64,000 nucleotides of DNA from Candidatus Woesearchaeota archaeon (lineage in GTDB: Archaea; Nanobdellota; Nanobdellia; Woesearchaeales; DSVV01). The notes under the pieces are model-generated. The model was not told where the DNA came from. It saw nothing but the letters and a program-made list of their open reading frames with translations, and searched no databases. Of this stretch, positions 13,568 through 46,304 are shown in pieces (the stretch's first letter is position 1; every line of letters begins with the position of its first letter). A program made the translations under genes and the position numbers. The DNA is taken from the NCBI GenBank assembly GCA_016192995.1, contig JACPTB010000001.1, positions 191,110 through 255,109 on the forward strand. The letters are read 5' to 3'.

Positions 13568-13645
13568 AATTTCAGGGGCTAACGAAAGGGGCAATTTTCT
13601 AAAAACTAAACTAAAACGAAACGACGAGGGGGGGAATTCCGTAAC
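13568..13645 (+). repeat. Left copy of intergenic repeat framing the surface-protein locus
   Basis: Blocks AATTTCAGGGGC, GGGGCAATTTTC and CGACGAGGGGGGGAATTCCGT occur here in order, and again in inverted orientation in 19262-19365. The G run is 7 here and 6 in the partner. The two copies enclose the small AbrB-like gene, the giant surface protein and the PRC-barrel gene. Confidence 0.65.
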
Positions 13646-13729
13646 GAACGAAAACAAAAGCTTTAAATAGTATTAGATTATTTAATTAATAGTTTAAGCA
13701 TAATTTAAGAATAGTTAAAGAATATTCCA

Positions 13730-13876
13730 ATGGTAAACATACAAAAAACCAAAAAAGGGCAATATACCATCACTCTTCCTTTAGATATTATCCTGATTAA
13801 AAAATGGAAAAAAGGAACAAAACTTTACCTCTACATAAATGAAAAAGGAGAATTAGTTTTAAAGGAGATAAAATAA
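13730..13876 (+). CDS. 48-residue AbrB-like DNA-binding protein
   Basis: The short frame begins MVNIQKTKKGQYTITLPLDI and ends LYLYINEKGELVLKEIK. The pattern T-K-K-G-Q-Y-T-I-T-L-P with a second beta pair is a minimal swapped-hairpin AbrB/MazE fold, as in many archaeal antitoxin-like regulators. The TATA-like TTTAAGAATAGTTAAAG is close upstream. No toxin gene is adjacent. It precedes the phase-variable-looking start of the giant surface gene and could regulate it. The gene is too short to exclude chance, but the domain pattern is good. Confidence 0.65.
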   Translation: MVNIQKTKKGQYTITLPLDIILIKKWKKGTKLYLYINEKGELVLKEIK

Positions 13877-13918
13877 AATGTTAAAGAAGATTGAATTAAC
13901 CACTCTAGAGTTACACGT

Positions 13919-13930
13919 GGGGGGGGGGGG
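13919..13930 (+). repeat. Run of 12 G at the 5' end of the surface-protein gene
   Basis: A homopolymer of 12 G lies between an upstream ATG (13878; MLKKIELTTLELHV) and the signal peptide of the giant protein. With 12 G the upstream frame stops at 13962-13964. With 13 or 10 G it would fuse in frame through RSERVRNSLLLVVCLLVF, which gives a complete signal peptide with a basic n-region. This is the geometry of a slippage switch. A homopolymer sequencing error would look the same. Confidence 0.7.
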
Positions 13931-13957
13931 CGAAGTGAAAGAGTTAGAAATAGTTTA

Positions 13958-16900
13958 TTGTTAGTAGTTTGCCTGCTCGTCTTTACAACATTAATCTCTC
14001 TTGTTTATGCCGCAGTTTATCAACCAACAGGCTATCAAGGCTCTCCTTATTCTGATGCTAATCCAAATTTTGCTGGAACGGATAATGCAGCAGGTAGTGG
14101 CGGTTCAGCTGTTTCTGTTTCAAATAATGATAGTGACTCTACTGCATTAGAGCAAGCACTATCGCAAGAAAATGTAACTGTAAGGATTTCTGCATCTGAC
14201 TTTGACCCAAATTCAACGCTGTCTGGAAATTATACCATTGGGACATCAACTGGAAGTGAGAAAGGAAATGCGCAGAATGGAACAGAAGTAAACGGAGCAG
14301 GCGGTGCAGGGACATTAGGCAGTGACGGAGATTCTGCTCAGGCCAAAGCAAGCATAGAGAGGGATGGTTATTACGATTTTGGTTCATCAATTAATGGTTC
14401 TGTTTGGATTAAAAAAACTACAAATGGAAATGCAGATGCCAGTACTAATTATTTATTTAATTATACTTATTGTTATTATAATGATTCATGGAATTGCGAC
14501 GCAGAAACGCAAAATACAGCAAGCGGGGTCACTACTAATTATCAAGCATATACAATCACAAACAAAATCATAAATAGTAGCTGGGGTGGAGGAAATGACG
14601 TTACTAATTACTCATTGCGTGTGAGAGTAAGAGGACACGACGAACAAACAGCAGCTTTAAATCCTGGGTTGTGGTCTGGATTAAGTAATGTGACTGCAGC
14701 TGCTAAAAATAAAACAATCCAACACAGATATAAATGGATTTACTCTTATAACAATGGGACTACTTGGAATGATGGAACTTCATTCAGCAACTGGAATTCC
14801 ACTCTTTTGAGGAATGGCACAAGCACTTTTAATGTCGTGAATCATATTACAGAAATATTTAGTAATATAACTCATTACGGCTTGTATGTTGAAGTTAATG
14901 GTTCTGATGCTTTATATGGAAACAGTGATTTATTCAATGCAACAGGAAATGTCACGCAGTCCAATCTAAATCTAACACAAACGGCTTTTACAACTGTCAA
15001 TACAACATATTTCCCGTCAACAGATACAGCAAACACAACTTTATGGTTTTATGGTGAACTTGGATATGCTTACGGTGCAGATGCGAATGATTATGGGGGA
15101 ACAGGGCATCCTGTAAATGTTTCTTTATACAAGCCCACACCTTCCGGTTATTCATTTATTGAATCTAAATTTCCAACATTAAATGCAAATGGCGCTTTCT
15201 CAACTAATTTTACTTTATCTATTAGAGCACAAGGCGGAACATGGCTAATAAAAACAAATTATAATTCATCAACTGACACATTTCCGGAAAACTCAAAAAC
15301 TTTTATTGTCAGAATTATAGCAAATCAAACAAAAACTTATGGCTTTTACGGAGAAAACACCTCTGCGATATATAATTTAGCAAATACTACAAACTTGCAA
15401 GGAGAAATAAGAATAGAGACATTTATTTACAACAATCCAGAAGGCTTTACACCAAACTGTAATGTAACAATTCAAGGCAAATCCACAGAGCAGATGACGT
15501 GGAATAGTACAGGATTATATTGCTACAATAATACCCAAGCACCAACATCAACAGGCGAAAAATCTGTACAAACAAATTTCACAATAAATGGAAGTTCTGG
15601 AGCAACAGAAGATAGCTTTTCTTCTCAAAACGCTCTGCTCAATGTAACAGATATTTTGATTATTAACGCTACCAATTCAATTTTTAATGTTTATAATAAA
15701 GGCGAGAATGTAACGCATTGGGGAAATGTTTACAATATAAGAAGCGAGCCGTTGCAAGGAAAAACGATAATAATAAATTTGATTAATTCTTCTGGAATTG
15801 TACAAAATTCAAACTCTTCTGTTTCGCTTGATGGCAACGGCTTTTTTAACAAAACCATATCAATTGGCTTTACAAACTCTTCGCAAAATAATGCTACTGG
15901 AGAATCATATCGCACCAGAGCATTGTTTAACTCAAACAATGGAAACAGTACGGAAACCACGTTTTCAGTTTCAAGTCTATTAAGTGTCACAAACATCTGG
16001 ACTGATAAACAAGAAGAGGGAACAGATTTTCCAACAGGGAGTGAAGAAACATCATTCTTTATCGGTGCCGATGTACTTTATGTAAGAACTCATGTAACAA
16101 ATGTTAGAGGAGAAAATGTTTCCGATAAAATGGTTTATTCTAATGTTACAAAAACAGATAGAACTTTGGAAGAAACAAGAAATTCATGGAATTCTTCTAC
16201 AAATTCTTATGGCTGGAATCCATTCTACAATATAAATGTCATTGCTCCTGCTAACCAGAGAACTGTAAATAGCCTTGCTAATGACACTAGTGGGAATTCT
16301 GGTTCTTCAACAGAAACTATAACATATTCTCCAAGCTATACTGGCAATCTTAATCTTGATTTATGGATCGCAAAAGAAAGTGGAAATACAGACGGACATA
16401 GTTTTGAACAAGGAGACAATATTACTATTTATGCCTTATTTAACAAAGACGGAACGGCTACAGATGTCGCAAATAACAATAGTCAGATTACACTTTATTA
16501 TGGAAATAGTTCTGTCTATATTTCCCAAACAAGTATGACTTATGTAAGTGCTGGTTTGTATAAATATAATTTTGTAATTGCAAGCGATGCGGTTAAAACG
16601 TCATATTTTACAAGAGTTTATGGTTTGCTAAGTGGAGCTGATCAGTATGGTTCTGTTTGGTATAGAGTTAGTGAGCCACCAACAACCACTTATACAAGTT
16701 TAAATATGCATATAAGCACTGGTTCTACTTATTACACTTCTGATACTTTAACGATTAATGCCTATATGTATAATCAAAATGGGAATGCCGTGACAAATGC
16801 AAGTGTTAATTTAACAATAAATTATCCTAACGGAACAATATTCATTTCAAACACAAATCTGAGCAATGATGGAAATGGAGATTATTCTTATTCAACTAAT

Positions 16901-18790
16901 TTAGGAACAGTAACAGGGAATTATAACCTAAGAATTAATGCAACTCAAGGAAATTTAAATGCAAGTGCCATTGAATCATTTTCTGTCATTTCAGCTTATT
17001 CCTCTATTTTCGTTTCTACAAGTTCAGTCGCAAAAAGACAAGGAGATAATGCTACTATTAGAAGTTATCTAAAATACCAAAACACAACAGCAGTAACAAA
17101 TGCAAATATAACTTATGATATCTATTATCCAAATAGCACAATTTGGTTAAATTCAAGCAACGCTACCGAGGAAGGAAATGGGTTTTACAATTTTTCGTTC
17201 AACATCCCCTCAACAGCTGTTTTAGGAGATTACAAAATTGTAACAACTGCAATAAAAAACCCCACAGATACAGATGTTTCTACATTATCAGTCTTAAAGA
17301 AAGTTTCTGGAACGATGATTGATATAACTAATTATGTTGAGGTTGAAGCAGGAAATAATTATGTGGCAGAGATTTCTGTTAAGGATGAAGAGGGAAATTA
17401 TGTAAACGCGGATTCAACCCCCAAAATAACTCTAATTGATCCCTTGGGAGATGTTTCTGTAGGACCAACAACATCAGGAGTTACAACTATAACAACTGGA
17501 AGATATAATTATACGAAAGCGACCGCTTCTTCTGCAACAGGCGGGCAATGGCAGGTCTTAGCTAATGTTTCAAGAGGAGGAAATTATTATGAAAACAGAG
17601 AATATTTCAAAATTACATCAGGACCTTTTGACGTTAGGGATATTTCTATAATTGATACCTCTGTCCCAACTTTAAGCATTTCGGTTGTTTTGGAAAATAC
17701 AGGAGGAGCAATAAAAGATATGTATGTTGAATGGAACTTAACAAGAACAGATACCGGTGCATTATTAGATTCGGGTGCTGATACTGTTGCAGTTGCAGGA
17801 AGCTCAGCAAAAACTCATACAATAAGCCCTTCAACTTCTTATATTGGAGATGTAAAGATAACCTTTCTTGGATGGTATGGAACAGATTTTACAGAAAGAG
17901 CGGGAGCTTTTAAAACTTTTATGACAACAAGTGCTCCTGTTGGAGAAGGTACCCCTGGTGGAGGAGCTGGTGGTGGAACGGGTGGAGAGTCTAGAGAAGA
18001 GGCAACGCCCTCCTCAACTGAAGAAATTGTAAAAGAATCTTCGGTAGACATAGATTTATCAAAATTGATAAAGGCAGCTTCCGTAAGAGTTGCGAAAGGT
18101 CAAACCATAACATTTCGCCTTGACGAAAAAACAACACATCGCTTAACAGTTGATTCATTATCAGATACATCAGCCCAAATAACTGTGCAATCAGAACCGC
18201 AAACTTTTGTATTAAATGTAGGTGAATATAAGAAATTAAGCCTTGATGGGGGATTAGATAACTTAAAAATAACATTACAAAGTATAAAAGATGGGGTAGC
18301 AGAGATCAGCATTGAAAAAATAGACCAAGAATCTAAAATAGCTCCTGGAGAAGAGAGTGCAAAAGAAACTGAAACAATTCAGGAAAAAGAGAGAAAAGCT
18401 CCGTCAAAGTCAACACAGTCTTACTGGCTCAGTATCTTAGTTCTCATTGTTATGGGATTATTAATCTATATAATAAAGAAAAAAGAGACGATTAAAGAGT
18501 TACTTACAAAAAAACATAAAGCTAAAGAGAAAGTTACCAGATATAACTTCCTAAATGCAAAAAACATCATTATTGTTATTTTAGGAGCGATAGTTTTAGT
18601 TTCTCTCTTGTTGAATATTTCAATTAAAGAAATTCCTTCAAAGATAATTAGTGTTTTAAGTGCTGTAAAACTACCTTCTGTAAGTTTAAACTGGTGGGTC
18701 GTGTTTGGAATTTTAGTTGTTTTGTTATTGTTCGGAATATTAATTATCCTGTTTTACATCTTTAAAGAAATTAAGAAACTTGTAAGATAA
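13958..18790 (+). CDS. Giant secreted surface protein with Ig-like repeats and C-terminal membrane anchors
   Basis: The 1610-residue protein begins with a hydrophobic signal (LVVCLLVFTTLISLVYA). It continues as a very Asn/Ser/Thr/Gly-rich ectodomain with dozens of N-glycosylation sequons and repeated beta-sandwich modules. Two adjacent ones near residues 910-1110 share the pattern Y-xx-D-T-L-T-I-N-A-Y...N-x-T-I-x-Y-P-N-G/S-T-I, like macroglobulin MG2 or Ig-like domains. A Gly-rich linker (near 1330) follows, then an acidic/helical part and three membrane helices at about 1479-1500, 1528-1548 and 1576-1602. It is probably an S-layer-like or adhesive protein. The only in-frame start is TTG at 13958, which would leave the signal without its basic n-region. 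The true start is probably the ATG at 13878 after a shift in the G run. Confidence 0.8.
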   Translation: MLVVCLLVFTTLISLVYAAVYQPTGYQGSPYSDANPNFAGTDNAAGSGGSAVSVSNNDSDSTALEQALSQENVTVRISASDFDPNSTLSGNYTIGTSTGSEKGNAQNGTEVNGAGGAGTLGSDGDSAQAKASIERDGYYDFGSSINGSVWIKKTTNGNADASTNYLFNYTYCYYNDSWNCDAETQNTASGVTTNYQAYTITNKIINSSWGGGNDVTNYSLRVRVRGHDEQTAALNPGLWSGLSNVTAAAKNKTIQHRYKWIYSYNNGTTWNDGTSFSNWNSTLLRNGTSTFNVVNHITEIFSNITHYGLYVEVNGSDALYGNSDLFNATGNVTQSNLNLTQTAFTTVNTTYFPSTDTANTTLWFYGELGYAYGADANDYGGTGHPVNVSLYKPTPSGYSFIESKFPTLNANGAFSTNFTLSIRAQGGTWLIKTNYNSSTDTFPENSKTFIVRIIANQTKTYGFYGENTSAIYNLANTTNLQGEIRIETFIYNNPEGFTPNCNVTIQGKSTEQMTWNSTGLYCYNNTQAPTSTGEKSVQTNFTINGSSGATEDSFSSQNALLNVTDILIINATNSIFNVYNKGENVTHWGNVYNIRSEPLQGKTIIINLINSSGIVQNSNSSVSLDGNGFFNKTISIGFTNSSQNNATGESYRTRALFNSNNGNSTETTFSVSSLLSVTNIWTDKQEEGTDFPTGSEETSFFIGADVLYVRTHVTNVRGENVSDKMVYSNVTKTDRTLEETRNSWNSSTNSYGWNPFYNINVIAPANQRTVNSLANDTSGNSGSSTETITYSPSYTGNLNLDLWIAKESGNTDGHSFEQGDNITIYALFNKDGTATDVANNNSQITLYYGNSSVYISQTSMTYVSAGLYKYNFVIASDAVKTSYFTRVYGLLSGADQYGSVWYRVSEPPTTTYTSLNMHISTGSTYYTSDTLTINAYMYNQNGNAVTNASVNLTINYPNGTIFISNTNLSNDGNGDYSYSTNLGTVTGNYNLRINATQGNLNASAIESFSVISAYSSIFVSTSSVAKRQGDNATIRSYLKYQNTTAVTNANITYDIYYPNSTIWLNSSNATEEGNGFYNFSFNIPSTAVLGDYKIVTTAIKNPTDTDVSTLSVLKKVSGTMIDITNYVEVEAGNNYVAEISVKDEEGNYVNADSTPKITLIDPLGDVSVGPTTSGVTTITTGRYNYTKATASSATGGQWQVLANVSRGGNYYENREYFKITSGPFDVRDISIIDTSVPTLSISVVLENTGGAIKDMYVEWNLTRTDTGALLDSGADTVAVAGSSAKTHTISPSTSYIGDVKITFLGWYGTDFTERAGAFKTFMTTSAPVGEGTPGGGAGGGTGGESREEATPSSTEEIVKESSVDIDLSKLIKAASVRVAKGQTITFRLDEKTTHRLTVDSLSDTSAQITVQSEPQTFVLNVGEYKKLSLDGGLDNLKITLQSIKDGVAEISIEKIDQESKIAPGEESAKETETIQEKERKAPSKSTQSYWLSILVLIVMGLLIYIIKKKETIKELLTKKHKAKEKVTRYNFLNAKNIIIVILGAIVLVSLLLNISIKEIPSKIISVLSAVKLPSVSLNWWVVFGILVVLLLFGILIILFYIFKEIKKLVR

Positions 18791-18835: not shown

Positions 18836-19204
18836 GTGCCAGAAAAATTCCCGGAGAAAAGTAGAGGAAAAAATGCTGTATCTTATGAAAATCCAGTTCC
18901 AAAACCAATAATAAAAAAAGCAGTAGGGAATACAATTAACAACTCGGTTGCTTCTATAAATTCAACTATAGGAAAAGAAGTTTATAGCGATGAAGGGAAT
19001 TATATCGGAAGTATTGTTGATTTTATTATTGGTGCAAACAGAATAGACTCAATCAAAATCGATATTAAAAATGAGAAATATAAATCGGGCAAAATAAAAG
19101 GTTGCATTATCAATTTTAAGAATATTAAGAGTTTTGGAGAGGTTATTATTATAGATAAAGCAATAGTATCAGATTTAATAGAAAAACTAAAAATTAATCT
19201 TTAA
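18836..19204 (+). CDS. PRC-barrel domain protein
   Basis: After a Lys/Pro-rich leader of about 45 residues, the protein has a single PRC-barrel domain: IGKEVYSDEGNYIGSIVDF, then strands ending GCIINFKNIKSFGEVIII. Archaeal PRC-barrel proteins are small beta-barrels often near cell-division or RNA-processing genes; the exact role is unknown. The frame begins with GTG at 18836, 45 bases after the surface-protein stop, so the two may be one transcript. No ATG precedes the domain in a sensible place, and the start is therefore uncertain. Confidence 0.75.
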   Translation: MPEKFPEKSRGKNAVSYENPVPKPIIKKAVGNTINNSVASINSTIGKEVYSDEGNYIGSIVDFIIGANRIDSIKIDIKNEKYKSGKIKGCIINFKNIKSFGEVIIIDKAIVSDLIEKLKINL

Positions 19205-19261
19205 GCAAATTTTCACAATCAATTCGTCCACTCTTCTTTTTGTAAAAAGAAGCAAAAACAA

Positions 19262-19365
19262 ACGGAATTCCCCCCACGACGGACTGAAAATTGCCCCTTG
19301 ATACTTATTCTTGATGGCTCACCGTGTTCGCTTGATTGAATACGCCCCTGAAATTACTTTGATTT
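19262..19365 (-). repeat. Right copy of intergenic repeat framing the surface-protein locus
   Basis: Read on the minus strand this has AATTTCAGGGGC, GGGGCAATTTTC and CGTGGGGGGAATTCCGTT in the same order as 13568-13645. The part 19293-19352 (GCCCCTT...GCTCACCGTGTTCGCT...GCCCCTGAAAT) also matches 20530-20590 in direct orientation, on the other side of the Fic gene. The rest of the spacer to 19460 shows no gene. Confidence 0.65.
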
Positions 19366-19461
19366 TTTGCCTACGGCATCGTTGCACTAAAAATCAATCC
19401 CTCCAAGTATTCGGGAGAATAGAACACCGAAAAGGCGAATAGGATGCGCCAATTTCAAAAG

Positions 19462-19476
19462 TTGTATGTGCACAAT
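19462..19476 (+). repeat. Left 15-bp inverted repeat of Fic cassette
   Basis: TTGTATGTGCACAAT is the exact reverse complement of 20465-20479. The similarity extends loosely outward (AAAAG here, CTTTT on the other side). It lies just before the TATA box of the Fic gene. Confidence 0.7.
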
Positions 19477-19517
19477 AAACCGAAAGTTTTATATAGTATG
19501 TGCTCTTACAATATTAT

Positions 19518-20456
19518 ATGGCTTACATTGAAACCATAAAACGGAACAAAAAGGAATATTACTACCTCACAAAAAATGTAAGGCTCAGCTTAAACAAATG
19601 GAAGAAGATAAGGGTTTTCTTAGGAGATAAAAAGCCTTCACAAGAAGAACTAAAAAAATATGCTCAAGAAATAGAGGATAAATCAAAACCGTTTTCAAAA
19701 ATCTCAAATTATACCTATCTTTCAGAGCATGATGCAGAAACCTTGCAGGATCTAAAAGAAAGTTATAGCACATGGCTTAAACAAATTCCAAAAAGTGCCA
19801 AGGAAAAGCTGAATGAGGATTTTGTTATAAGATTTACATATCATTCCAACGCAATTGAAGGTAATAGGCTGACATTAAGGCAAACTGCTCTAATTCTTAA
19901 AGATAAAGTAATACCTTCTGGAGTAAGAGCAGAGGATTATAACGAAGCCATAAATGGAAAAGAATGCTTAGATTATATTAAATTGTATGAAGGCGAATTA
20001 AACACCAAACTGCTCGAAAAAATAAATGGGATTCTTACTAAAAATACAGGAGTAGTTTATGGAGGAAGAATACGTTTTTTTAATGTACAAATACAAGGCT
20101 CAACTCATGTTCCTCCACCCCATACAGAAGTTAAAAAGCATATGCTAAATTTTTTAAAGTGGTATAGTGCAAACAAAAATAAACTGCATCCGTTTGAATT
20201 AGCAGCTTTGATTCATGCAAAATTAACATGGATACATCCTTTTGAAGATGGAAATGGCAGAACTGCAAGAACCGTTATGAATTTTATCCTAATGAAAAAG
20301 GGTTTCCCTATGTTTTTTATTCCATTTGAGAAAAGAGAAGAATATTACCAATCATTAGATGTTGCTGATAAAGGCAATTATAAGGAATATATTTCTAGAA
20401 TGTTGCAATTGATTATAGATCAAATAAGAAGTTACGGGCACAATAAGAAAGAATAA
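19518..20456 (+). CDS. Fic-family AMP-transferase
   Basis: From the ATG at 19518 the 312-residue protein has an N-terminal helical region, then TYHSNAIEGNRLTL, the inhibitory-helix motif S-x-A-I-E-G-N whose Glu blocks ATP (class II Fic), and the catalytic HPFEDGNGRTAR (H-P-F-x-D/E-G-N-G-R). The flap GSTHVPPP precedes it. Fic enzymes transfer AMP or another nucleotide moiety to a hydroxyl on a target protein and are kept silent until the Glu moves. A GTG at 19500 would add six residues. A TATA box (GTTTTATATAGT, about 19487-19498) ends 19 bases before 19518, fitting a leaderless message. The gene is alone between 15-base inverted repeats, a cassette-like setting. Confidence 0.92.
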   Translation: MAYIETIKRNKKEYYYLTKNVRLSLNKWKKIRVFLGDKKPSQEELKKYAQEIEDKSKPFSKISNYTYLSEHDAETLQDLKESYSTWLKQIPKSAKEKLNEDFVIRFTYHSNAIEGNRLTLRQTALILKDKVIPSGVRAEDYNEAINGKECLDYIKLYEGELNTKLLEKINGILTKNTGVVYGGRIRFFNVQIQGSTHVPPPHTEVKKHMLNFLKWYSANKNKLHPFELAALIHAKLTWIHPFEDGNGRTARTVMNFILMKKGFPMFFIPFEKREEYYQSLDVADKGNYKEYISRMLQLIIDQIRSYGHNKKE

Positions 20457-22337: not shown

Positions 22338-23588
22338 CTATTCTAATAAAAATTTCCATGCAGGAATTAATTTTATTGTTCCTTCTTCAAATTTAATTTC
22401 TTTTTCTTCTTTATTTGTGATTAAAATCCCTTGTTTTTGATTAAATTTTCTCATGAATTCTTTCATTGGCTTAAAATCTTCAGAATTTATATTTTCTTGA
22501 TATTTGACTTCTATTGGTGATTTATCATAAATTATATCTATTTCTGTTCCATTTTTCCAGAAAGAATTTGCTCTGAGTTTATTTACGATTATTGTTTCAA
22601 CCATTCTTCCAAAAAAAGACTCATCTATTTTTGGCTTGTAGAGGTAAGATAAAGCAGTATCGGTCGGATACGCTCTTTTTTTCTTCCTTAATGTAGTTAT
22701 GCTTCCCTTTCTGTAATTTCCTAAAATTGTTATTAAAAAGCTGTCTTTAAGATATGAAATATAATCTTTTATTACTCTTCTGTCTTTTTCAAATTGTTTG
22801 CTTAATGATTGGTAATCAACATACATTCCTGGATTTGTAGAAATCAATTCCAAAAGAATCTTTAAAAATTCAGGGTCTTCTATTCCAAACATTTGAGGGA
22901 TATCTTTATACACTATTTTATCAACAATTAATGCACGGATATATTCCTTAAAGTCTTTGTCTGTTTCAAAGGAAAATGTTTCTGGAAATCCTCCTTTTTC
23001 AACAAATTTCAAGAAAAGCGGGTTTACAGCAGTTTCATACTTAAACTTTTCTTCTTTTAGGTTATTGAATCTTAGATATTCTCTAAATGTAAATGGAGTT
23101 AGAGTGAATTCGAAAATTCTGCCTGCCAGAGTTTCTTTTGTTTTCTTTCTTATGAAAAGAGATTCAGAGCCGCTTATGAAAAATTTTAATTTAGGATATA
23201 AATCATAATATTTTTTTAATTCATTCTCCCAATTTTTGTACTTTTGAATTTCATCAAGAAAAATGTATATTTTGCCCTCTCTGAAATCTTTTGAGTTCAT
23301 TTCTTTGTATGTGCTCAAAACTTCACTTAAATTTACGGACATTTCATCAAAAGAGAAAAAGAGGATATTTGTTTGCTCGACTTTTTCTTGCATTAATTTA
23401 TGTATCAATTGGTACATAAGTGTCGTTTTTCCAATCCTTCTAAGACCAGTTAGCGCGACAATAAATCTTTTGCTGATATGATTTTCTATTTCAGTAAAAA
23501 CATTTCTCTTGAAAGGCAAAGCTAGTTCTGCATCTACTTTTCCACTTATCCACCACGGGTTAAATTCTTCTAATTTTGCTCTTTCCAT
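22338..23588 (-). CDS. AAA_14/DUF4143 family ATPase
   Basis: The 416-residue protein is an AAA-type ATPase with Walker A GLRRIGKTTL (K54), Walker B IYIFLDEIQ (about 107-115) and sensor FFISGSES. A DUF4143-type C-terminal half follows with a winged-helix-like middle and EIDIIYDKSPIEVKYQ, a restriction-fold-like motif (D...E-x-K). Proteins of this family are very abundant in archaea. They behave as mobile or accessory genes, and the function is not established. It is the first of three members in this window (also 31425 and 57574). Its TATA box (TTTATAAA) lies between two 8-base inverted half-sites at 23609-23649. Confidence 0.85.
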   Translation of the reverse strand: MERAKLEEFNPWWISGKVDAELALPFKRNVFTEIENHISKRFIVALTGLRRIGKTTLMYQLIHKLMQEKVEQTNILFFSFDEMSVNLSEVLSTYKEMNSKDFREGKIYIFLDEIQKYKNWENELKKYYDLYPKLKFFISGSESLFIRKKTKETLAGRIFEFTLTPFTFREYLRFNNLKEEKFKYETAVNPLFLKFVEKGGFPETFSFETDKDFKEYIRALIVDKIVYKDIPQMFGIEDPEFLKILLELISTNPGMYVDYQSLSKQFEKDRRVIKDYISYLKDSFLITILGNYRKGSITTLRKKKRAYPTDTALSYLYKPKIDESFFGRMVETIIVNKLRANSFWKNGTEIDIIYDKSPIEVKYQENINSEDFKPMKEFMRKFNQKQGILITNKEEKEIKFEEGTIKLIPAWKFLLE

Positions 23589-31424: not shown

Positions 31425-32735
31425 ATGGATAAGACAATAAAAACGATACTGGTGGAATGGAAAAGCAAAAAGATTCCCGAGGTAATTCCCAGAGAAATCA
31501 ATCTTCAGGAGTATCTCCATCTAAAGGTTAACAAGATAATAGTATTAAACGGATTTAGGAGAGTTGGAAAAACTTATATCCTATACGGTTTGGCCAATGA
31601 GCTTCTTAAATCAAATTCTCGTGAAGAGGTGGTGCATATTAATTTTGAAGACGAAAGAATACCTCTTAGGACAGAATTTTTAAGCAATCTGATTCCTGCT
31701 GCAGACGAGTTATTCAGCAAAAAAATTAAATACCTGTTTTTGGATGAGGTGCATAATATCCCTGGATGGAGCAAATGGCTCAGGAGGATATACGACAATC
31801 AGGATATGCATATTTTTGTTTCAGGCTCTTCTTCAAGAATGTCTGAAGAGGAAATACCAACAGAATTAAGAGGGAGGTTTCTTGAAATTAAAATATTCCC
31901 TTTATCCTTTAAAGAGTTCTTAAATTTTAAGGAACTTAGTTTTGATTTTAAGCTGTTAGACTATTCAGAAAAGGAGAGGCCTCTTATCCTAAAAGCGCTT
32001 GCCGAATATCTCATTTTCGGAGGGCTGCCTGAAATAACCCTGATAGACGAAAATAAAAAATTTGAATTGGCGCAGTCTTATTATGCTACTCTTATCAAAA
32101 GGGATATTGTTGAAAGATATAATATAAAGAATGAAGTATCCCTAAAAGCACTATTAAAACTGCTTCTCGATTCAAGAGAATATTCTATAAGTAAGAGCTA
32201 CAATAATCTTAAAAGTTTAGGCTATGAAATCGGTAAATCCACACTCCAGAAATATATATCGTATATTGAAAACTCATATTTTGCATTTAGCGTGCCTATT
32301 TTTTCTTATAAAATAAAAGACCAAATGCAGTACCCAAAAAAGATTTATTTTATAGATAACGCATTTATCAGCTCAATTTCAACGAAGTTCTCAAATAATT
32401 TTGGAAGACTTTACGAGAACATTGTTGCCGTTGAACTGAAAAGGAGAAAAAAAGAGTGTTATTACTGGAAGAATGCCGAAAAAGAGGAAGTGGATTTTGT
32501 CTTAAAAAATGATTCCAAGGTTAATCAGCTGATACAGGTTTGTTATGATTTTTCTGACCCCGACACAAAAAAGAGAGAGATCAAAGTCTTACTAAAAGCC
32601 AGTAAAGATTTAAAATGCAAAAATTTATTGCTGATTAACCAAGATTATTTTGGTGAAGAAGAATCCGAGTGGTTTGGGATAAAAAGAAAGGTTAAATTTA
32701 TTCCCCTTTGGAAATGGATTTTGGGAAAAGTTTAA
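31425..32735 (+). CDS. AAA_14/DUF4143 family ATPase
   Basis: The 436-residue ATPase has Walker A NGFRRVGKTYIL (K49), Walker B YLFLDEVHN followed by PGWSKWLRRIYD, and sensor FVSGSSSRMS. A DUF4143-type C-terminal domain ends with EKEEVDFVLKND and a winged-helix region around KSLGYEIGKSTLQKYI. It is an accessory family member like 22338 and 57574 but not a recent duplicate. The TATA-like GATTTAAATAGTAC is about 25 bases before the ATG. It is the only gene of a 1.45-kb segment bounded by the real and the decayed tail of the NTF2-like gene. Confidence 0.87.
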   Translation: MDKTIKTILVEWKSKKIPEVIPREINLQEYLHLKVNKIIVLNGFRRVGKTYILYGLANELLKSNSREEVVHINFEDERIPLRTEFLSNLIPAADELFSKKIKYLFLDEVHNIPGWSKWLRRIYDNQDMHIFVSGSSSRMSEEEIPTELRGRFLEIKIFPLSFKEFLNFKELSFDFKLLDYSEKERPLILKALAEYLIFGGLPEITLIDENKKFELAQSYYATLIKRDIVERYNIKNEVSLKALLKLLLDSREYSISKSYNNLKSLGYEIGKSTLQKYISYIENSYFAFSVPIFSYKIKDQMQYPKKIYFIDNAFISSISTKFSNNFGRLYENIVAVELKRRKKECYYWKNAEKEEVDFVLKNDSKVNQLIQVCYDFSDPDTKKREIKVLLKASKDLKCKNLLLINQDYFGEEESEWFGIKRKVKFIPLWKWILGKV

Positions 32736-38196: not shown

Positions 38197-40488
38197 ATGG
38201 TGACAGCTTTACAGCGATTAGTTGGTAAAGGTATTAAGCTAAATTCTAATCTAAAGGTACATCTCTCTAAAAAAGGACAGATTACTACTTTTATTATTGT
38301 AGGATTGGTAGTTCTTTTTATTGTTTTGCTCGTATTGTATTTAAGTTCAAAATTCAATGTAACTGAAAAACTTTCTTTTGAAAAAAAAGATCAAGTAAGC
38401 GTCTTTGTTGAAAATTGTGTCAGCCAGGTAACTGATGATGCATTAGAAAAACTAGGACAGCAAGCTGGACATCTTTATCTTGACAAATTTGAAATTTATA
38501 CTGCCCAATATGATCCTTTTAATGCTAATGTTTTAAGTTTGGATAATGGCAATAGTTTCTTGCCCTATTGGCTTTATCAACGAAGGAATGGCGTTGATAA
38601 AAGTGAAATGCCTCAATTGTATAAACAGTATAAAGGCGATGATTCCATCCAGGACCAGCTTGAACGATATATTCGAGATGGTGTTGAACAATGCGTCAAT
38701 AATTTTGTCAGCTTTAATAGCAAAGGTATTTTAGTTAATCCAAAAGGAGAGCTTTCTATTGCGGTATTATTTGGTGAAGAAGATGTCCAAGTAAAAGCGG
38801 AATATCCTTTAGAAGTTACTACGCAGAACAACGTTGAAAACGTGAACAGTTTTTCAACAACGAAACAAGTTCGTCTTAAACAAGTTTATGCATTAGCAAG
38901 GAATATTTTGCAGTATGAAACGAATACGGTCTTTTTAGAAGATAATGTTATTGCTCTTGCATCATTATATGGGAGAAATCATGATGCATCGTTTCCTGCA
39001 ATGTATGGCGGGATAGAAGTAAAAGATTGCACTGAAATGGATTTCTGGCTTGTTGAAGATGTCAAAACAAAATTCAAATCAATGCTCCAGCAAAATGTGC
39101 CTTTCTTTAGAGTAGAAAATGCCAAGCCAAATCCTGTTGAAATTTCTATTGTAGAAGAGTCAAATGCAGGCACGAGACAAGTACGGCAGGGAACTTTTAA
39201 AATAGTTTCAGATAAAATCTCCAATAAACAATACCAAGACATTAATGTATGGTTTAATTATGATGAAAGTTACCCTTTCTATCTTTATCTTGGTTCAGGA
39301 GGTGCTGTATTTCCTCAACGATTGCCGGTTGATGCCCTGCTCCTTAACTTTTGCATTTATGAATACAAATTTGTGTATGATCTTACGTTTCCTATGGTTA
39401 TAAGCTTGCAAGATAAAGAATCCTTACTCAAACAAAAACCTTATTATTTTCAATTCCCTGTTCAAACTATTATTAAAGAAAACTATCCGAGAGTAAGGAT
39501 TCTTGATTTGCTCAATCCTGATGCGCAAACACAACCATTAACCTCAGAATGCAGCAGTGGAGGGCAAAGCAATGACCAAACTATTAAAGTGATTGATACA
39601 AAAACAAAAAAACCGATTGAAAAAGCATTAGTCTATTTCCAATGCGGACCTGAATATTTGATGACGTACAAAGAAGATAATTCTGTGGATCAAGCAGTTA
39701 AATTTGCAGACCGATGTTTTATGGGAAATACGAATGCAGAGGGAATTTACCAAGGAAAATTACCATTATGCGGCGGAGGGGCAATGGTAACTATTGATAA
39801 ACAAGACTACGCAACAACAACACAACTTGTTGGAAATGTTCTTGAGGATGCTGAAGTTTCTACACAAATATCGTTGCTTCCTTTGAAAACGTTTACTGTT
39901 GATGTACAGAAATTTTTTGCTGCGCCGCCTTTGACAAAAGGAGAAACTTCAACCTATCAGGGTGTTGTACTTGATGATAATAACAAGGTAGTTGCTTGCA
40001 ATCTCAATCCAAAAATCTCACCTGTTCAAACTAATGAACAAGTCTACATTACTTTAGAACACATAAACACCCTTGGTGGAAGTATTGGAAGAACTGAAGG
40101 GATTTCTTTTGTTCCAGGGCAAGAAACTGCCTTAAAACTTGGCTCGGGACGATATCATGCCGAACTTATGATGCTTCGCCATGAACGTTATCCTGGTGAA
40201 ATGACTTTTAAAAAACATAGCCAGTCCATTAAAATACCAAGTACGATTGCAACAAAGGCAAAGACTATTTATTATCCTGAAGAAGATGTTTTACTGCCTT
40301 CAACAGTTTCTGGCGGCTCAGAATTTACCTTTGAAATTGGAATCTCAGATTTAGACAAAGATAAAATCACGTTTTATGTTATTGACGAAGGCCAGCCAAA
40401 GTATCTTGAACAAATAGGTATAGCTAGCCAACACACTCAAGCATGTTATCAGCTCAATCAAGCTATTATGAAACCACGTATTGGATAA
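38197..40488 (+). CDS. Large secreted/membrane-anchored protein with KGQIT pilin-like N-terminus (paralogue 1)
   Basis: The 763-residue protein has a basic 27-residue leader followed by KKGQITTFIIVGLVVLFIVL, a hydrophobic segment like archaeal type IV pilin (class III) signals. A long ectodomain follows. It is a paralogue of the 47095 gene: both have a Cys shortly after the membrane segment, Q-x-G-x-Y/I-x-L, P-Y/F-W-L/F-Y and Q/S-C-V/I-N-N-F. A carboxypeptidase-regulatory-like or Ig-like module (IKVIDTKTKKPIEKALVYF, about 465-485) is followed by more beta domains. An AGAGGGG ribosome site lies 4 bases before the ATG. First gene of the 17-kb surface operon. Confidence 0.75.
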   Translation: MVTALQRLVGKGIKLNSNLKVHLSKKGQITTFIIVGLVVLFIVLLVLYLSSKFNVTEKLSFEKKDQVSVFVENCVSQVTDDALEKLGQQAGHLYLDKFEIYTAQYDPFNANVLSLDNGNSFLPYWLYQRRNGVDKSEMPQLYKQYKGDDSIQDQLERYIRDGVEQCVNNFVSFNSKGILVNPKGELSIAVLFGEEDVQVKAEYPLEVTTQNNVENVNSFSTTKQVRLKQVYALARNILQYETNTVFLEDNVIALASLYGRNHDASFPAMYGGIEVKDCTEMDFWLVEDVKTKFKSMLQQNVPFFRVENAKPNPVEISIVEESNAGTRQVRQGTFKIVSDKISNKQYQDINVWFNYDESYPFYLYLGSGGAVFPQRLPVDALLLNFCIYEYKFVYDLTFPMVISLQDKESLLKQKPYYFQFPVQTIIKENYPRVRILDLLNPDAQTQPLTSECSSGGQSNDQTIKVIDTKTKKPIEKALVYFQCGPEYLMTYKEDNSVDQAVKFADRCFMGNTNAEGIYQGKLPLCGGGAMVTIDKQDYATTTQLVGNVLEDAEVSTQISLLPLKTFTVDVQKFFAAPPLTKGETSTYQGVVLDDNNKVVACNLNPKISPVQTNEQVYITLEHINTLGGSIGRTEGISFVPGQETALKLGSGRYHAELMMLRHERYPGEMTFKKHSQSIKIPSTIATKAKTIYYPEEDVLLPSTVSGGSEFTFEIGISDLDKDKITFYVIDEGQPKYLEQIGIASQHTQACYQLNQAIMKPRIG

Positions 40489-40500
40489 AAGGATAGAACC

Positions 40501-43500
40501 ATGAATAAAAACTTACATCAAAAATGCGCGTTGTTTATGATTTTGTTAGTGCTTACTATTCCTTATCTTTCAGCAATAACGTATGCTGCTACCGGCTCTT
40601 TGACTAATCTTAATGTAACTGGCAAAGATGGTTTTAGGAATGTTATACGACAAGAGCAGGATAGTGTTCAGGTCGTGGTTGATGCAACTATTCTTAATGT
40701 TGATGGAGTTCCTCTTGAAGTAAAAAAAGAAAATGTTTTTGTTAATTTCAACAAAATTCAAGAGAATGCCAATGATTGTGTATTAGGTGAAGAAAGTATC
40801 TATACTTGTATATATGCTTCTCAGCCTGCTGATTATAAAGCAGCTGTTTTACCTTTAGTCGTCACCTTATTTGATAAGAGTTTCCAGCTTCTTGACAAAA
40901 AAACAGAGCAAATAGTTGTTGATAGCGAGCCGCCATCAGGAAGCGTTTCTGTTAAAGGGAAAATTACTTTGGAAACTGATTTTGAGCTTGCGTATACTGT
41001 TGAAGATACTGCTTGCGACGATCCTGAATGCAAAAGCAAATGTTCAGGTATCGATGTTGTTGAATTGTATGCTGGCAAAGATAAAGATACTCTTCAACTC
41101 GTGCTTACCGAACAAGTTGCTGAAACACAGCAATGCTCTGCTACAAAATCCATTACTACTAACGTTCAGCAACTTGGTTTGCAGACTGGTGATGTCCAGT
41201 TCTGCCTCAAAGCAAGCGATAAATTTGGGAATGTTATGGATGAGCCATCTTGTGTTGTGCAGCCTGTTGATTATCAGGCACCCTCAATTATCAAAGAAAC
41301 ATTTCGTGTTTATGATCCAGCAACAAACGGAATTTTAACCCATAAAAAAAATGTAGCTACTACGGTTGACCTTAAAATCAATATTACTGATGATGTTAGT
41401 AAAATAACTGCAGATAAAGTTACTGCAAATTTTGCAGCGTTTAATCCAGCGCAATCTTTTGTTCAAAAATATAAATCAATTGCTCCAGATACTTGTTTAG
41501 CGCATATTGAAGCTTTATCTGAGTTTGCAATCTACGAATGCACCTGGAAAAACATTGTTATTGCAGCTAGTGATCAGGATACTTATGAAATTAGTATAAC
41601 TGCAAAAGATGATGCAGATAATAAAGCTGAGGAGAAATTTAGTGTAACTATTCCTACTGACAATCAAGGCCCAGCAGTTACTCAATTACAAGCGCAGTAT
41701 GATGGATTTTTGAATCCAACCAATAATACGTTTCTTTTGACGATTGATGAAACCGGTGTTGGCTTGTTTCAGAAAAAAGTTTTTATGGATATTGGCACTA
41801 AAAAAGCGCAAGCATCTGCTTGCGCAAGAGAAGGTAGTTTGTGGAAATGCCTTTTCGATGCAATTCCTCTTTCTGAATCAAGCTTTGTTCACGGCACTCG
41901 CTACCTGGTTCAAGCAGCTGTTGATGACTCGTTTGATGATCTAGGTAATAAATTCATCGGCAATAAATTTAGCAGAGAGTTTCTTTTTGATAATTTAGCT
42001 CCAGACGTAGAAAATGCTACTATTAAACCATTAGGGTCTGATAGAACAGTGCTTGTAGGAACTGGTCAGGATGTAGCATTGCTTACTGCATTTATTGTTG
42101 AGAAAGGCGGCGGAGAAGAAGGAGAAGCAGCTGGCATAGTTGCAGAACGTGCTTTTGCAGATTTCAGCGCTTTTGATTTTACTCAAGGCTTAACACCAGC
42201 AACTGATTGCGTTGAACTTCCAGAACATTTTGCAGCTACTTTTGATAGCAGCAAGGAGCATTTGTACAAATGTACTTGGGAATATGCAGGTCCAATCTCA
42301 GAAAAAAAAGTGAAAGTAAGATTCTTAATTGTTGATAATGCTGGTAATTCAAAATCTCTTGAAGAACAAAAACCTTCAGATGCAATTATTGTTGTAGATT
42401 TTAAAGAAGTAAAACGTGATGTTTGGGAAGATGAGCTGAAAGGAGTATTTCCTTCTGGTAAAACCTATAGTTTAAACAGAAATTTTTTATGGATGTCACA
42501 GCAAGGAACTCCCCTTAGAGCTACTATTGATTTAGGGCAAACTAAAAGCGGGTTTAATAGCCATGTACATGAAATTCTTATTAGTTCTTGTCGAGGCGCA
42601 CCTGGAAGAATTACTAAAGATGAAGGTATGAAAGAATTTGCTGTGCAGGCATTAAACTATCCTGTTGAAAGTGGAAGTTCTTTTGGCAATTCCAAAAGAA
42701 ATATTCTGATTACTATTCCAGTGTTTGATAAAACCATGGTAAAAGATAAAAAAGAATTAACTATTGTTTGTGATGGAACTATCGTCCAAGGAACTTCTAA
42801 AACCTCAGCAATTTTTACACCTAATGAACCATTTAAAGCAACCTTTATCGTAGATTTAGTTGATGATTTATTTTCCCGTCCAGACAATGCTGCCCTTGAC
42901 AGTTTAATCGAAAACAAAAACCATATTGAAAATCTCGAAAGCACGTTAGAAGTGTTTGAGTGGATGACAAAATGGTTGGGTGGAATGTGCACTATTTATG
43001 CTAAAATTATGGCAATTCTCAATAATACCTGTGTTGTAGTGAATGGTTTTACCATGGCATTTGGCAATATTTATCCGCCCTTGTACAGTTCTGATTCACA
43101 ATGTAAATTACAATCTGACTTTTTGAATGATTTATGGTATGGGCATAAAGGAGATCCTAAATTTAAAGGTTTTGGGATGTTTAAAACTGATAAAAAATTA
43201 GCAAGTGTTGGATTCTGGTGTGATGCTTTTATGTGCACACAATGCGATAGAGCATGGAAAGAAATGATTGCTCCTGTTCAAAAGAGCAATGCGCCAGGAT
43301 TTTCTCTTGGATTAAGTAAAATTCCCGGAATGAGCTATGATCCTGAAAAAGTTGGAACAGTTGATGTTCGTGATTTAACCAAAGATCCGTTTGCTGAAAA
43401 ATATGATTTAGCACCGCAAATTACTTTTGATCCTCAGCAAAATCTGATATTTGCAACATTGTGCGCACCTCCGTGTCTGCCAACAATACAAAAATTCCTT

Positions 43501-44007
43501 GCATCAATAACTATTTTGTTAAAAACAGAAAATAAATGCAGATTAACAGCAGTTGCCTCTGGTGAGAACCCTGCAATCTGTGATAATTATTACAGCTACC
43601 AAGTGTGTGATTTACTGAGCACTAATCTTATACCATGGTATATGGTAACAGACATGGTCAAGGGTCTTTTTACTCAATTTATACCTTCATTGATACAGAT
43701 GGGATTAGAACAAGGGATATGCGATGGCAACTTTGTAAGCAAAAATGGTATATGTGCATTATATCGTGTAGAAGCATTTTTAGGTGCAGGTTTTGCACTG
43801 AGTGATATTATTACCGATATAGGAGATATTGTTAATCAGTTTAAATCATGGGGTGGTGGAGATGAAGAAAGTTCACCAAGCGCTGGTGCAGCAGATACTA
43901 GCTCTGATGCTGGAACAACAACATCTTCATCATCTGGAACAACTGCTACTCCAACCAGCGAGCCTTCAGCAGAAGAAAAGGCATTAGGAGTGATACCTAC
44001 AAAATGA
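40501..44007 (+). CDS. Giant secreted Ig-like protein with Cys-rich C-terminal domain
   Basis: The 1168-residue protein has a signal peptide (about 1-31, ending TYAA) and four or more bacterial-Ig/cadherin-like modules marked by D-x-x-G-N and D-N-x-x-P. From residue about 820 a cysteine-rich part follows: GMCTIYAK, SQCKLQSDFLNDLW, GFWCDAFMCTQCDRAW, CAPPCLP and YQVCDLLS, with amphipathic helices, then a Ser/Thr tail. The WCDAFMC, CLP and VCDL blocks recur in the same order in the 49131 gene. It starts 12 bases after the previous stop, with AAGGAT as ribosome site. Location should be extracellular. Confidence 0.75.
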   Translation: MNKNLHQKCALFMILLVLTIPYLSAITYAATGSLTNLNVTGKDGFRNVIRQEQDSVQVVVDATILNVDGVPLEVKKENVFVNFNKIQENANDCVLGEESIYTCIYASQPADYKAAVLPLVVTLFDKSFQLLDKKTEQIVVDSEPPSGSVSVKGKITLETDFELAYTVEDTACDDPECKSKCSGIDVVELYAGKDKDTLQLVLTEQVAETQQCSATKSITTNVQQLGLQTGDVQFCLKASDKFGNVMDEPSCVVQPVDYQAPSIIKETFRVYDPATNGILTHKKNVATTVDLKINITDDVSKITADKVTANFAAFNPAQSFVQKYKSIAPDTCLAHIEALSEFAIYECTWKNIVIAASDQDTYEISITAKDDADNKAEEKFSVTIPTDNQGPAVTQLQAQYDGFLNPTNNTFLLTIDETGVGLFQKKVFMDIGTKKAQASACAREGSLWKCLFDAIPLSESSFVHGTRYLVQAAVDDSFDDLGNKFIGNKFSREFLFDNLAPDVENATIKPLGSDRTVLVGTGQDVALLTAFIVEKGGGEEGEAAGIVAERAFADFSAFDFTQGLTPATDCVELPEHFAATFDSSKEHLYKCTWEYAGPISEKKVKVRFLIVDNAGNSKSLEEQKPSDAIIVVDFKEVKRDVWEDELKGVFPSGKTYSLNRNFLWMSQQGTPLRATIDLGQTKSGFNSHVHEILISSCRGAPGRITKDEGMKEFAVQALNYPVESGSSFGNSKRNILITIPVFDKTMVKDKKELTIVCDGTIVQGTSKTSAIFTPNEPFKATFIVDLVDDLFSRPDNAALDSLIENKNHIENLESTLEVFEWMTKWLGGMCTIYAKIMAILNNTCVVVNGFTMAFGNIYPPLYSSDSQCKLQSDFLNDLWYGHKGDPKFKGFGMFKTDKKLASVGFWCDAFMCTQCDRAWKEMIAPVQKSNAPGFSLGLSKIPGMSYDPEKVGTVDVRDLTKDPFAEKYDLAPQITFDPQQNLIFATLCAPPCLPTIQKFLASITILLKTENKCRLTAVASGENPAICDNYYSYQVCDLLSTNLIPWYMVTDMVKGLFTQFIPSLIQMGLEQGICDGNFVSKNGICALYRVEAFLGAGFALSDIITDIGDIVNQFKSWGGGDEESSPSAGAADTSSDAGTTTSSSSGTTATPTSEPSAEEKALGVIPTK

Positions 44008-44021
44008 ATTAATTAAAAATA

Positions 44022-46304
44022 ATGGAAACAATGGCAATGAAATTACTCGAAAAAAAACAGGGAAAATATGTTCAAGCAACCTTTATGATAATGGTAATTA
44101 TGGTTGTAATAGGCTATGCTTTATTTACTGCACCCTCAAATAAACAAGCAAATGAAGAAGAGTTTTTAACTGGTTTTAGTGTTGTAGAAGATGTTCAAGT
44201 TAATGTAGATTCTTCATTAAAAGAATCTACGAAGACAACAGAAGAAATACTGGTTGAAGTTAATAAAGACAATCCTGTTGATAAGAATGTGTATGAGTTT
44301 GATAATGCAGACGTAGATACGAGAAATGATATTGTCGGCGATGCTGGATTAGGATCTGTTACTGGGTTTGCAGTAAAGAAAACTTCTTGTAAAGGAACTC
44401 TAACAAAAGGTTATTTATCTGGGGGGAATAAAGATCCACAAAAAGTATGTGTTGAGTGGAAAGATAAAGATCACGTACAATCAATAATTTATTATCAACC
44501 AGATCTTTCAAAGGGATGGGTGATTGTACCAGAGGGCTATGTAATCGCAACTAAAGCGGATGAAACACTAACACTCAATGTAATCCGTAAAGATGGTTTA
44601 TTAGTGGCTGCATTGCCAACAGAATATGCTCCTGCAAAAGCTACATTTGCTGTTGATATTCAAAATAGTTTCCCGCAGTTATTTACATCAGGAACTCCAG
44701 CACCATCACCTTCAGGGGTTGCTTCTGAACCAGCTAAACCAGTAGTTTCACCCAAAAAATCATCAGTAGGTGTTGTTGTTGAAGGAACTGGTGGATTAAG
44801 ATTATTAAAATTGGCTCAAGATAAACAAGGTACAACAGAAAATACTGAAGCAATTACTGGAGATCAATTAAATAATAATCAATATCGTACTATGACCAGC
44901 CCTAAAGGTCCTGATGGCAAATCTATTAACATTCGTCAACATAAATCAACTACTGGTGAAATTTATTATACTGATAAAAATAATTTCCTTCTTCCAGATG
45001 GTTTAGTTGTTGAAATGGAGACTACTGGCGATAAAAAAATATATAGAAAATACAACAGCGCTGGAGCAACATTTGAAAATGTTGATGTAGGTTCATATAA
45101 TCTTCAAAAAGACAATTCAGAATATGTTTCTAAATACCATAATTATCAAAAATCAGTTCAATTTGCGCTTGTTAAAAACTCTCTTGATCCAACTGGTCAA
45201 TTTCCTGGGCATTATGTTGTTACTGATTCTGGTAACAAAGGTAAATTTGCATTTGTTGATGATCAGATATGGAGTGAAGGCACTATTTATGAGTTAAAAT
45301 ATAATCCAAACGAAGGAACCTATGAACAAGTAAAATGTGAAACCTGTGATGTTGAAGAGGAAGATGGTCAATATTATGTTGTAAAAGGTAAAGAGAAATT
45401 CAAAGTTGGCGATAAAGATCCCTTTGATTTAGCTGAAACTGCGCTTGACGGTTGTGTGGAAAAAATAGCAGATGACACAAAGAATAATGAAGGCGAAGAA
45501 TGTGGATTTGTTAAAGATCAGTTAAAAGCTGGTTATAGAATTTATTCTGAAAAGTTTAGAAGTGAAGTTGGGAAATTATTTGGTTTTGCAGTCGAACAAG
45601 CAGACTGGTATCAAAAAGCAAAGCGTGTACCTACATTAATGTGCGCTGCAGGATATAATATAAGGACACAAGATGGTATACCTGTTACGACACAATGGGT
45701 AGACAATCCACCTTCATATTGGGGAATGGATGTAAAGGCAATAACTGATTTCAATGTGCTCCGTGATGCTGATCCTTTTAGTAATATTTATGTGTATAAA
45801 CTCTTTGCTGGTAAAAGAGAGGAAGTAACGCCAACCTTATACCGGTATTCATTTTCGATGAGTTTAGCTGGGGCAATGGTATATGAAGTGTATTTAATTA
45901 ATAGTTGTACTCGTGATAGATCAGATGATATTCAAGGAGGTTTTATTTATCAAGGTTCATTAGGAGCAAATGGTGTTGATAGGCAGCATTTTGCAACAGA
46001 TCAATTAATCTTTGACTGCAATAAAGGAGCATGCAGGTTTAATTATGCCTGTGTTGATATGTTTTTAAGCCAGGACAGTACTGATCCAGACGGAAGATTA
46101 TGCATGCCTTTAGATGGCGGTTTGCATGGTAGCAAGTTTGAAACAGCAACTGAAGAAGATTCTAACGGTGGAAGCAATGCTGGAACATTATCTGCAACAG
46201 ATTGCAGTGATACTGAAGAAATACAAAATAAAGCTTTGCCTGTGCATACTATTTGCGATATTTATGATGATCCGCGTTCAAAGGGATTACAAGGGTGTCA
46301 ATGA
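44022..46304 (+). CDS. Membrane-anchored secreted protein of the surface operon, unknown
   Basis: The 760-residue protein has one N-terminal membrane segment (about 19-38, QATFMIMVIMVVIGYALF) and then an extracellular part with the short motifs LTGFSV and VTGFAV, common in DPANN secreted proteins. A Pro/Ser linker (about 225-250) and a soluble domain containing several Cys pairs (CETCDVEEEDG, CNKGACRFNYAC) follow. No family recognised. It lies 14 bases after the previous gene and overlaps the next by an ATGA, so it belongs to the same operon. Confidence 0.7.
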   Translation: METMAMKLLEKKQGKYVQATFMIMVIMVVIGYALFTAPSNKQANEEEFLTGFSVVEDVQVNVDSSLKESTKTTEEILVEVNKDNPVDKNVYEFDNADVDTRNDIVGDAGLGSVTGFAVKKTSCKGTLTKGYLSGGNKDPQKVCVEWKDKDHVQSIIYYQPDLSKGWVIVPEGYVIATKADETLTLNVIRKDGLLVAALPTEYAPAKATFAVDIQNSFPQLFTSGTPAPSPSGVASEPAKPVVSPKKSSVGVVVEGTGGLRLLKLAQDKQGTTENTEAITGDQLNNNQYRTMTSPKGPDGKSINIRQHKSTTGEIYYTDKNNFLLPDGLVVEMETTGDKKIYRKYNSAGATFENVDVGSYNLQKDNSEYVSKYHNYQKSVQFALVKNSLDPTGQFPGHYVVTDSGNKGKFAFVDDQIWSEGTIYELKYNPNEGTYEQVKCETCDVEEEDGQYYVVKGKEKFKVGDKDPFDLAETALDGCVEKIADDTKNNEGEECGFVKDQLKAGYRIYSEKFRSEVGKLFGFAVEQADWYQKAKRVPTLMCAAGYNIRTQDGIPVTTQWVDNPPSYWGMDVKAITDFNVLRDADPFSNIYVYKLFAGKREEVTPTLYRYSFSMSLAGAMVYEVYLINSCTRDRSDDIQGGFIYQGSLGANGVDRQHFATDQLIFDCNKGACRFNYACVDMFLSQDSTDPDGRLCMPLDGGLHGSKFETATEEDSNGGSNAGTLSATDCSDTEEIQNKALPVHTICDIYDDPRSKGLQGCQ

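Follow-up and report, generated by a model that had tools for sequence, protein, structure and literature searches.

A run of 12 consecutive G residues lies at positions 13919 to 13930 (+ strand) of the window, inside the start of a large gene for a putative surface protein. By the window we mean the whole stretch of DNA analyzed here, 64,000 nucleotides from a Candidatus Woesearchaeota archaeon (contig JACPTB010000001.1, positions 191,110 to 255,109). From the sequence, we think it rather probable that this G12 tract serves as a translational contingency switch that works by slipped-strand mispairing. During replication, the tract would gain or lose G residues through slipped-strand mispairing. 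In cells with 10 or 13 G, translation from the ATG at 13878 would read through the tract and on through a signal peptide, placing a glycoprotein-like protein of 1610 amino acids on the cell surface. Cells with 11, 12, or 14 G would make a peptide of 19 to 28 residues without the surface protein, so that the consensus sequence, with 12 G, would have captured the OFF state. Such switching could help cells to evade viruses or to vary how they contact a host cell. Slippage, its reversibility, expression, and benefit are all predictions of this model.

The G12 tract and the gene at whose start it lies

The tract, its rarity, the reading frames around it, the ribosome-binding site, and the secretion features can be read directly from the DNA. 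The longest other homopolymers in the window are G7, C6, A8, and T9. On both strands of the whole genome (1,617,290 bases, 16 contigs), the run reported in the initial annotation is the only one of at least 9 G; a single run of exactly 8 G and four of exactly 7 G are also present. Runs of at least 12 G are expected 0.001 times per genome by decay from the four G7 runs and 0.003 times from the dinucleotides of the window; the DNA has a GC content of 34%. The length of the tract thus far exceeds the chance expectation, as is characteristic of contingency loci, and this supports a switch. One of the four G7 runs (13628 to 13634, + strand), exceeded in length within the window only by the G12 run, was noticed post hoc 284 bases 5′ of the G12 tract; it is possibly a contracted tract. 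RNA structure around the G12 tract was not stronger than that of shuffled sequences (z = -0.39), a scan of the window for bacterial promoters and terminators gave nothing exceeding chance, and an Rfam search of the window gave no matches. The flanked tract had no matches in genome_contigs and viral_contigs, which may lack records very close to the window.

A TATA-like box of the archaeal type (TTTAAATA, 13662 to 13669, + strand), 27 nt 3′ of the G7 run, is the probable promoter of a two-gene unit. The first gene of this putative unit is a 48-amino-acid open reading frame (ORF) at 13730 to 13876 (+ strand) that resembles AbrB/MazE (PF04014; E value of 0.022, below the cut-off) and has no relative at an E value of 0.01 in the other 10 genomes of the family. 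Its stop codon sits 1 nt ahead of the ATG at 13878. The relevant span starts upstream of the 13878-to-13980 interval originally delimited, either with the upstream ORF at 13730 or with the TATA-like box at 13662. A Shine-Dalgarno sequence, AAAGGAG (13861 to 13867, + strand), lies 10 nt 5′ of this ATG. Its predicted pairing energy is -7.1 kcal/mol; only 5% of random sites reach -6.8 or lower. All 7 bases of AAAGGAG match the tail of the 16S rRNA of this genome, which ends ...GGATCACCTCCTTTT and carries the anti-Shine-Dalgarno sequence CACCTCCTTTT at its 3′ end. Both the 16S and 23S rRNAs score best with archaeal models, which bears out the archaeal origin proposed earlier; placement within DPANN, as also proposed, would be compatible with this.

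As sequenced, with 12 G, the frame from the ATG is closed by a stop after 28 codons (13878 to 13964, + strand), in agreement with the earlier statement that it ends at once. We tried tract lengths from 7 to 17 G in silico. The frame opened into the 1610-amino-acid ORF not only at 10 and 13 G, as previously noted, but also at 7 and 16 G. Hence, with respect to reading frame, a change of a single G toggles the gene, as in known contingency loci. The sequence directly 3′ of the tract (13931 to 14011, + strand) encodes a basic n-region (RSERVRNS) and a hydrophobic signal-peptide core ending in VYA, the cleavage site being judged by eye. This signal peptide is separated from the ATG by nothing but frame and is joined to it only at 7, 10, 13, or 16 G. 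With 13 G, the product reads ...GGGG-RSERVRNS-LLLVVCLLVFTTLISLVYA and continues through the 1610-amino-acid frame. The frame logic, the strong Shine-Dalgarno sequence, and the position of the ATG 1 nt past the upstream stop all support the switch. The length of the n-region in the ON form, 26 residues, is long for a signal peptide and counts against it.

The 1610-amino-acid ORF (13958 to 18790, + strand) encodes a probable surface protein. It has 66 N-glycosylation sequons, compared with 36 expected from composition, and several hydrophobic stretches at its C terminus that are predicted membrane helices. In Pfam, only an Ig-like MG2 domain (residues 1027 to 1098; 17036 to 17251, + strand; PF01835; E value of 2.9e-20) exceeded the cut-off, a YtkA-like match falling slightly below it; NCBIfam gave nothing at all. 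These features, together with the signal-peptide-like N terminus, would fit exposure at the cell surface, and from the sequence the product is best described as a putative surface protein that is anchored in the membrane, Ig-like, and probably glycosylated. The description of the protein as S-layer-like is not supported: no S-layer family was matched in Pfam or NCBIfam. The on/off switch itself stands as the best-supported reading, on the basis of run length, the Shine-Dalgarno sequence, the signal peptide severed by frame, and precedents elsewhere in the order.

A comparison of the same run between homologues, as suggested in the initial annotation, found no close homologue among 352 genomes of the order. 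Partial matches at an E value of 1e-8 or better were present in 8 other genomes, none of them in the same family. That neither a close homologue nor a second copy of the flanked tract turned up in these searches counts against the switch. The partial homologues with a readable start (L154, L156, and L162) have basic residues ahead of the signal core; the window protein has such residues only in the ON frames.

Long G tracts across the order

We searched the 352 genomes for runs of at least 10 G and examined all 84 places found, in 60 genomes. A crude gene caller placed 55 of these runs, at loci of no more than 48% GC and at least 200 nt from locus ends: 24 were in gene bodies, 16 preceded a start by no more than 150 nt, 4 were in the first 90 nt of a gene, and 11 were elsewhere. 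For 10,041 random places in the same loci, the proportion within 150 nt before a start was 8.0% (binomial P = 4e-6). Tracts near the starts of proteins with hydrophobic N termini were likewise overrepresented (10 of 55, compared with 3.5% of random places; P = 2e-5), including when the window, which is one of the 10, was excluded (9 of 54; P = 1e-4). As a rough control, from fewer and partly different genomes, we treated runs of exactly 7 G alike; of 48 such runs, 6 preceded a start and 1 was near a hydrophobic start. The differences from the long tracts gave P = 0.03 and P = 0.008, respectively (Fisher's exact test), and P = 0.013 for hydrophobic starts with the window excluded. All these P values are too small, because related genes were counted as independent.

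One of the tracts, at L044, is in a distant relative and has the same architecture: the ATG is followed by three codons, G10, and a signal peptide (ATG-K-L-R-GGG, then the signal peptide). There, the frame is open across the tract for at least 663 codons. L044 is a closer likeness to the window tract than are the promoter and reverse-transcriptase settings described below. The L044 architecture, the excess at hydrophobic starts, and the length differences between homologous tracts indirectly support the switch. All the supporting tracts are in other genes and in genera other than that of the window, which counts against it.

Length differences were found in a group of promoter tracts. The pattern GGGGGG-TAACGCA occurs at 10 places in 7 of the 352 genomes, all of one family, compared with a single occurrence of the reversed pattern. 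Nine of the 10 places precede genes whose products have lipoprotein-like starts (MKK...C). The tracts comprise 8 to 12 G, lie mostly 50 to 70 nt 5′ of the start, and have a TATA-like box a short way 3′. Two tracts in one genome, L146 (G9) and L153 (G12), share 17 of the 20 bases upstream and 80 of the 90 bases downstream. Between genera, L148 (G10) and L152 (G11) are alike at 85 of 90 downstream and 11 of 20 upstream bases, and L148 and L149 (8 G) precede orthologous-looking lipoproteins. The tract lengths of homologous lipoprotein promoters thus differ, both within one genome (9 and 12 G) and across genera (8, 10, and 11 G). The L144 to L153 series includes promoters that are nearly identical in sequence and lie before different lipoproteins, in two genera. 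Separately, G tracts of 9 to 10 residues were seen in the promoter regions of genes for pilin-like or short membrane proteins (VAIVAVVAIV) at L005, L006, L008, L009, and L038, four of which belong to the window's own family.

The other recurrent setting, besides promoters, is the gene for a reverse transcriptase related to that at L060, relatives of which were found in 93 of the 352 genomes. Among 31 loci selected for looking split or bearing a tract, 11 had a run of 7 to 27 G at one site, directly 5′ of the sequence encoding the GMPLGNLTSQ motif. These 11 loci (L042, L059, L060, L061, L062, L090, L091, L095, L124, L128, and L132) represent 11 genera; among high-scoring reverse-transcriptase loci, 3 of 29 had the tract, all of them already among the 11. 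Three of the 11 genes are in frame, 7 are broken at the tract, and 1 is at a contig end, so that the same conserved tract occurs in the order in both broken and intact forms. The G27 of L061 stands in place of conserved codons and may well be an artifact. All seven loci tested have a near repeat (70 to 93 bases); most mismatches between its copies fall on A in one of them, or on T when the other strand is read, which is the hallmark of a diversity-generating retroelement (DGR). C tracts of 10 to 14 residues were also seen at the 5′ or 3′ end of other relatives of the reverse transcriptase (L007, L015, L028, L113, and L115). In the matched text of the literature on DGRs, phase variation, and archaea, none of the matches listed reported the reverse-transcriptase tract.

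The three settings raise the possibility that poly-G contingency loci for the cell surface occur throughout the order, in the coding starts of surface-protein genes (the window and L044), beside the TATA-like box in lipoprotein and pilin-like promoters, and at one fixed site in DGR reverse-transcriptase genes. We regard this broader proposal as plausible, if a little short of probable. As a part of it, slippage would also switch the DGR reverse transcriptase, itself an engine of protein diversification.

Alternatives to the proposed translational switch

A contingency switch is the likeliest explanation of the G12 tract. The next, which we consider unlikely but worth taking seriously, is an error of consensus or assembly: in reality the tract would have a constant 13 (or 10) G, leaving the gene permanently on. 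Homopolymers of 12 G are generally hard for sequencers, and the remainder of the 1610-amino-acid frame is intact. Moreover, of 86 long tracts in the order, 9 lie no more than 60 nt from a locus end that coincides with a contig end. Such positions fit base-calling artifacts, as they would fit true length variation, which breaks assemblies too. Against an error, a tract as long as 12 G should be unstable anyway, and its length is far from chance in a genome of 34% GC. Similar homologous tracts in the order also vary in length, those lengths themselves coming from assemblies; the many contigs per genome indicate that these are probably metagenome assemblies.

Translation could instead begin at a TTG at 13958, with the tract merely a leader sequence. 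This TTG is the sole start of the 1610-amino-acid ORF as sequenced, and a distant homologue, L154, seemingly uses TTG, as judged by eye. However, the TTG lacks a ribosome-binding site (-2.4, compared with a median of -2.1 for random sites), consistent with the initial annotation, in which the protein was left without a proper start at 12 G, and the ATG with the strong site is 80 nt upstream. Furthermore, a protein started at the TTG would have no basic residue before the hydrophobic core, unlike L154, L156, and L162. We conclude that a TTG start is improbable.

We consider it somewhat less probable again that RNA polymerase or the ribosome slips on the tract in a programmed manner, yielding a fixed share of full-length product from unchanged DNA. 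Known cases of programmed slippage favor A/T runs, and a conserved tract length would be expected, whereas homologous tracts of the order vary. The argument for slippage of this kind is that long homopolymers may be slippery for polymerases and ribosomes, as described for poly-A/T in the matched text of one study (PMC3711429).

Two further explanations are very improbable. In the first, the tract would be of the promoter type found at the lipoprotein genes, with its length setting transcription. Such tracts recur in the order, but around the G12 tract there is neither a TATA-like box nor a start codon of the frame at the distances seen there, the sole TATA-like box found being 250 nt upstream, and we rejected this reading. 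In the second, the gene would be a fixed, decaying pseudogene; its frame is closed as sequenced, but the 1610 codons are otherwise intact.

Relation to known systems and other features of the window

Phase-variable surface genes with poly-G or poly-C tracts are known in bacteria such as Neisseria, Campylobacter, and Helicobacter. As in these genes, the window has a long run of G close to where a surface-protein gene begins, and one base toggles the frame. It differs in that the gene is archaeal, with an archaeal-type TATA-like box and a small AbrB-like ORF adjoining, and in being known here from one assembled tract length. Homopolymer tracts of bacteria can also be located in the promoter, as in the Neisseria porA type. 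In this type and in the lipoprotein promoters of the order, as in the window, a surface gene has a long G tract at its start, but the window tract is within the coding start rather than beside a TATA box. To our knowledge, homopolymer switches, a textbook theme in bacteria, have hardly been described in archaea. Many small-genome archaea are thought to live attached to other cells. If the G12 tract is a switch, small-genome archaea would vary their surface with an inexpensive mechanism that bacterial pathogens also use, and this idea can be tested directly on existing reads at the loci listed above.

Homopolymeric tracts near the 5′ ends of prokaryotic genes have been described as inactivation sites in a set that included 18 archaeal genomes (PMC2831843); in the matched text of that study, the tracts are poly-A/T of up to about 9 residues, in contrast to the poly-G of 12 in the window. 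The matched text of a 2025 review names archaea merely as a future place to look for phase variation (PMC11868660). Among the matches listed in our search of the phase-variation literature, from which subscription papers were mostly outside scope, the matched text described no archaeal poly-G switch, and we found no literature on phase variation in Woesearchaeota. For DPANN, one match concerned archaeal restriction-modification, with no archaeal switch in the matched text (PMC10609329), and the matched text of another concerned a bacterial porin-like protein.

The window has several other features. Directly 3′ of the surface-protein gene are genes for a PRC-barrel protein and a Fic-domain protein (18836 to 20456). 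A series of large ORFs on one strand, most of them of 678 to 2034 amino acids, occupies 38197 to 55235; four have no Pfam match at an E value of 0.001, and the 2034-amino-acid ORF has a weak adhesin-repeat match below the cut-off. Three AAA_14/DUF4143 ATPases are encoded at 22338 to 23588, 31425 to 32735, and 57574 to 58851. Lastly, a perfect tandem repeat of a 12-base unit (TTTTCTACCCCC, 3.2 copies) lies at 345 to 382.
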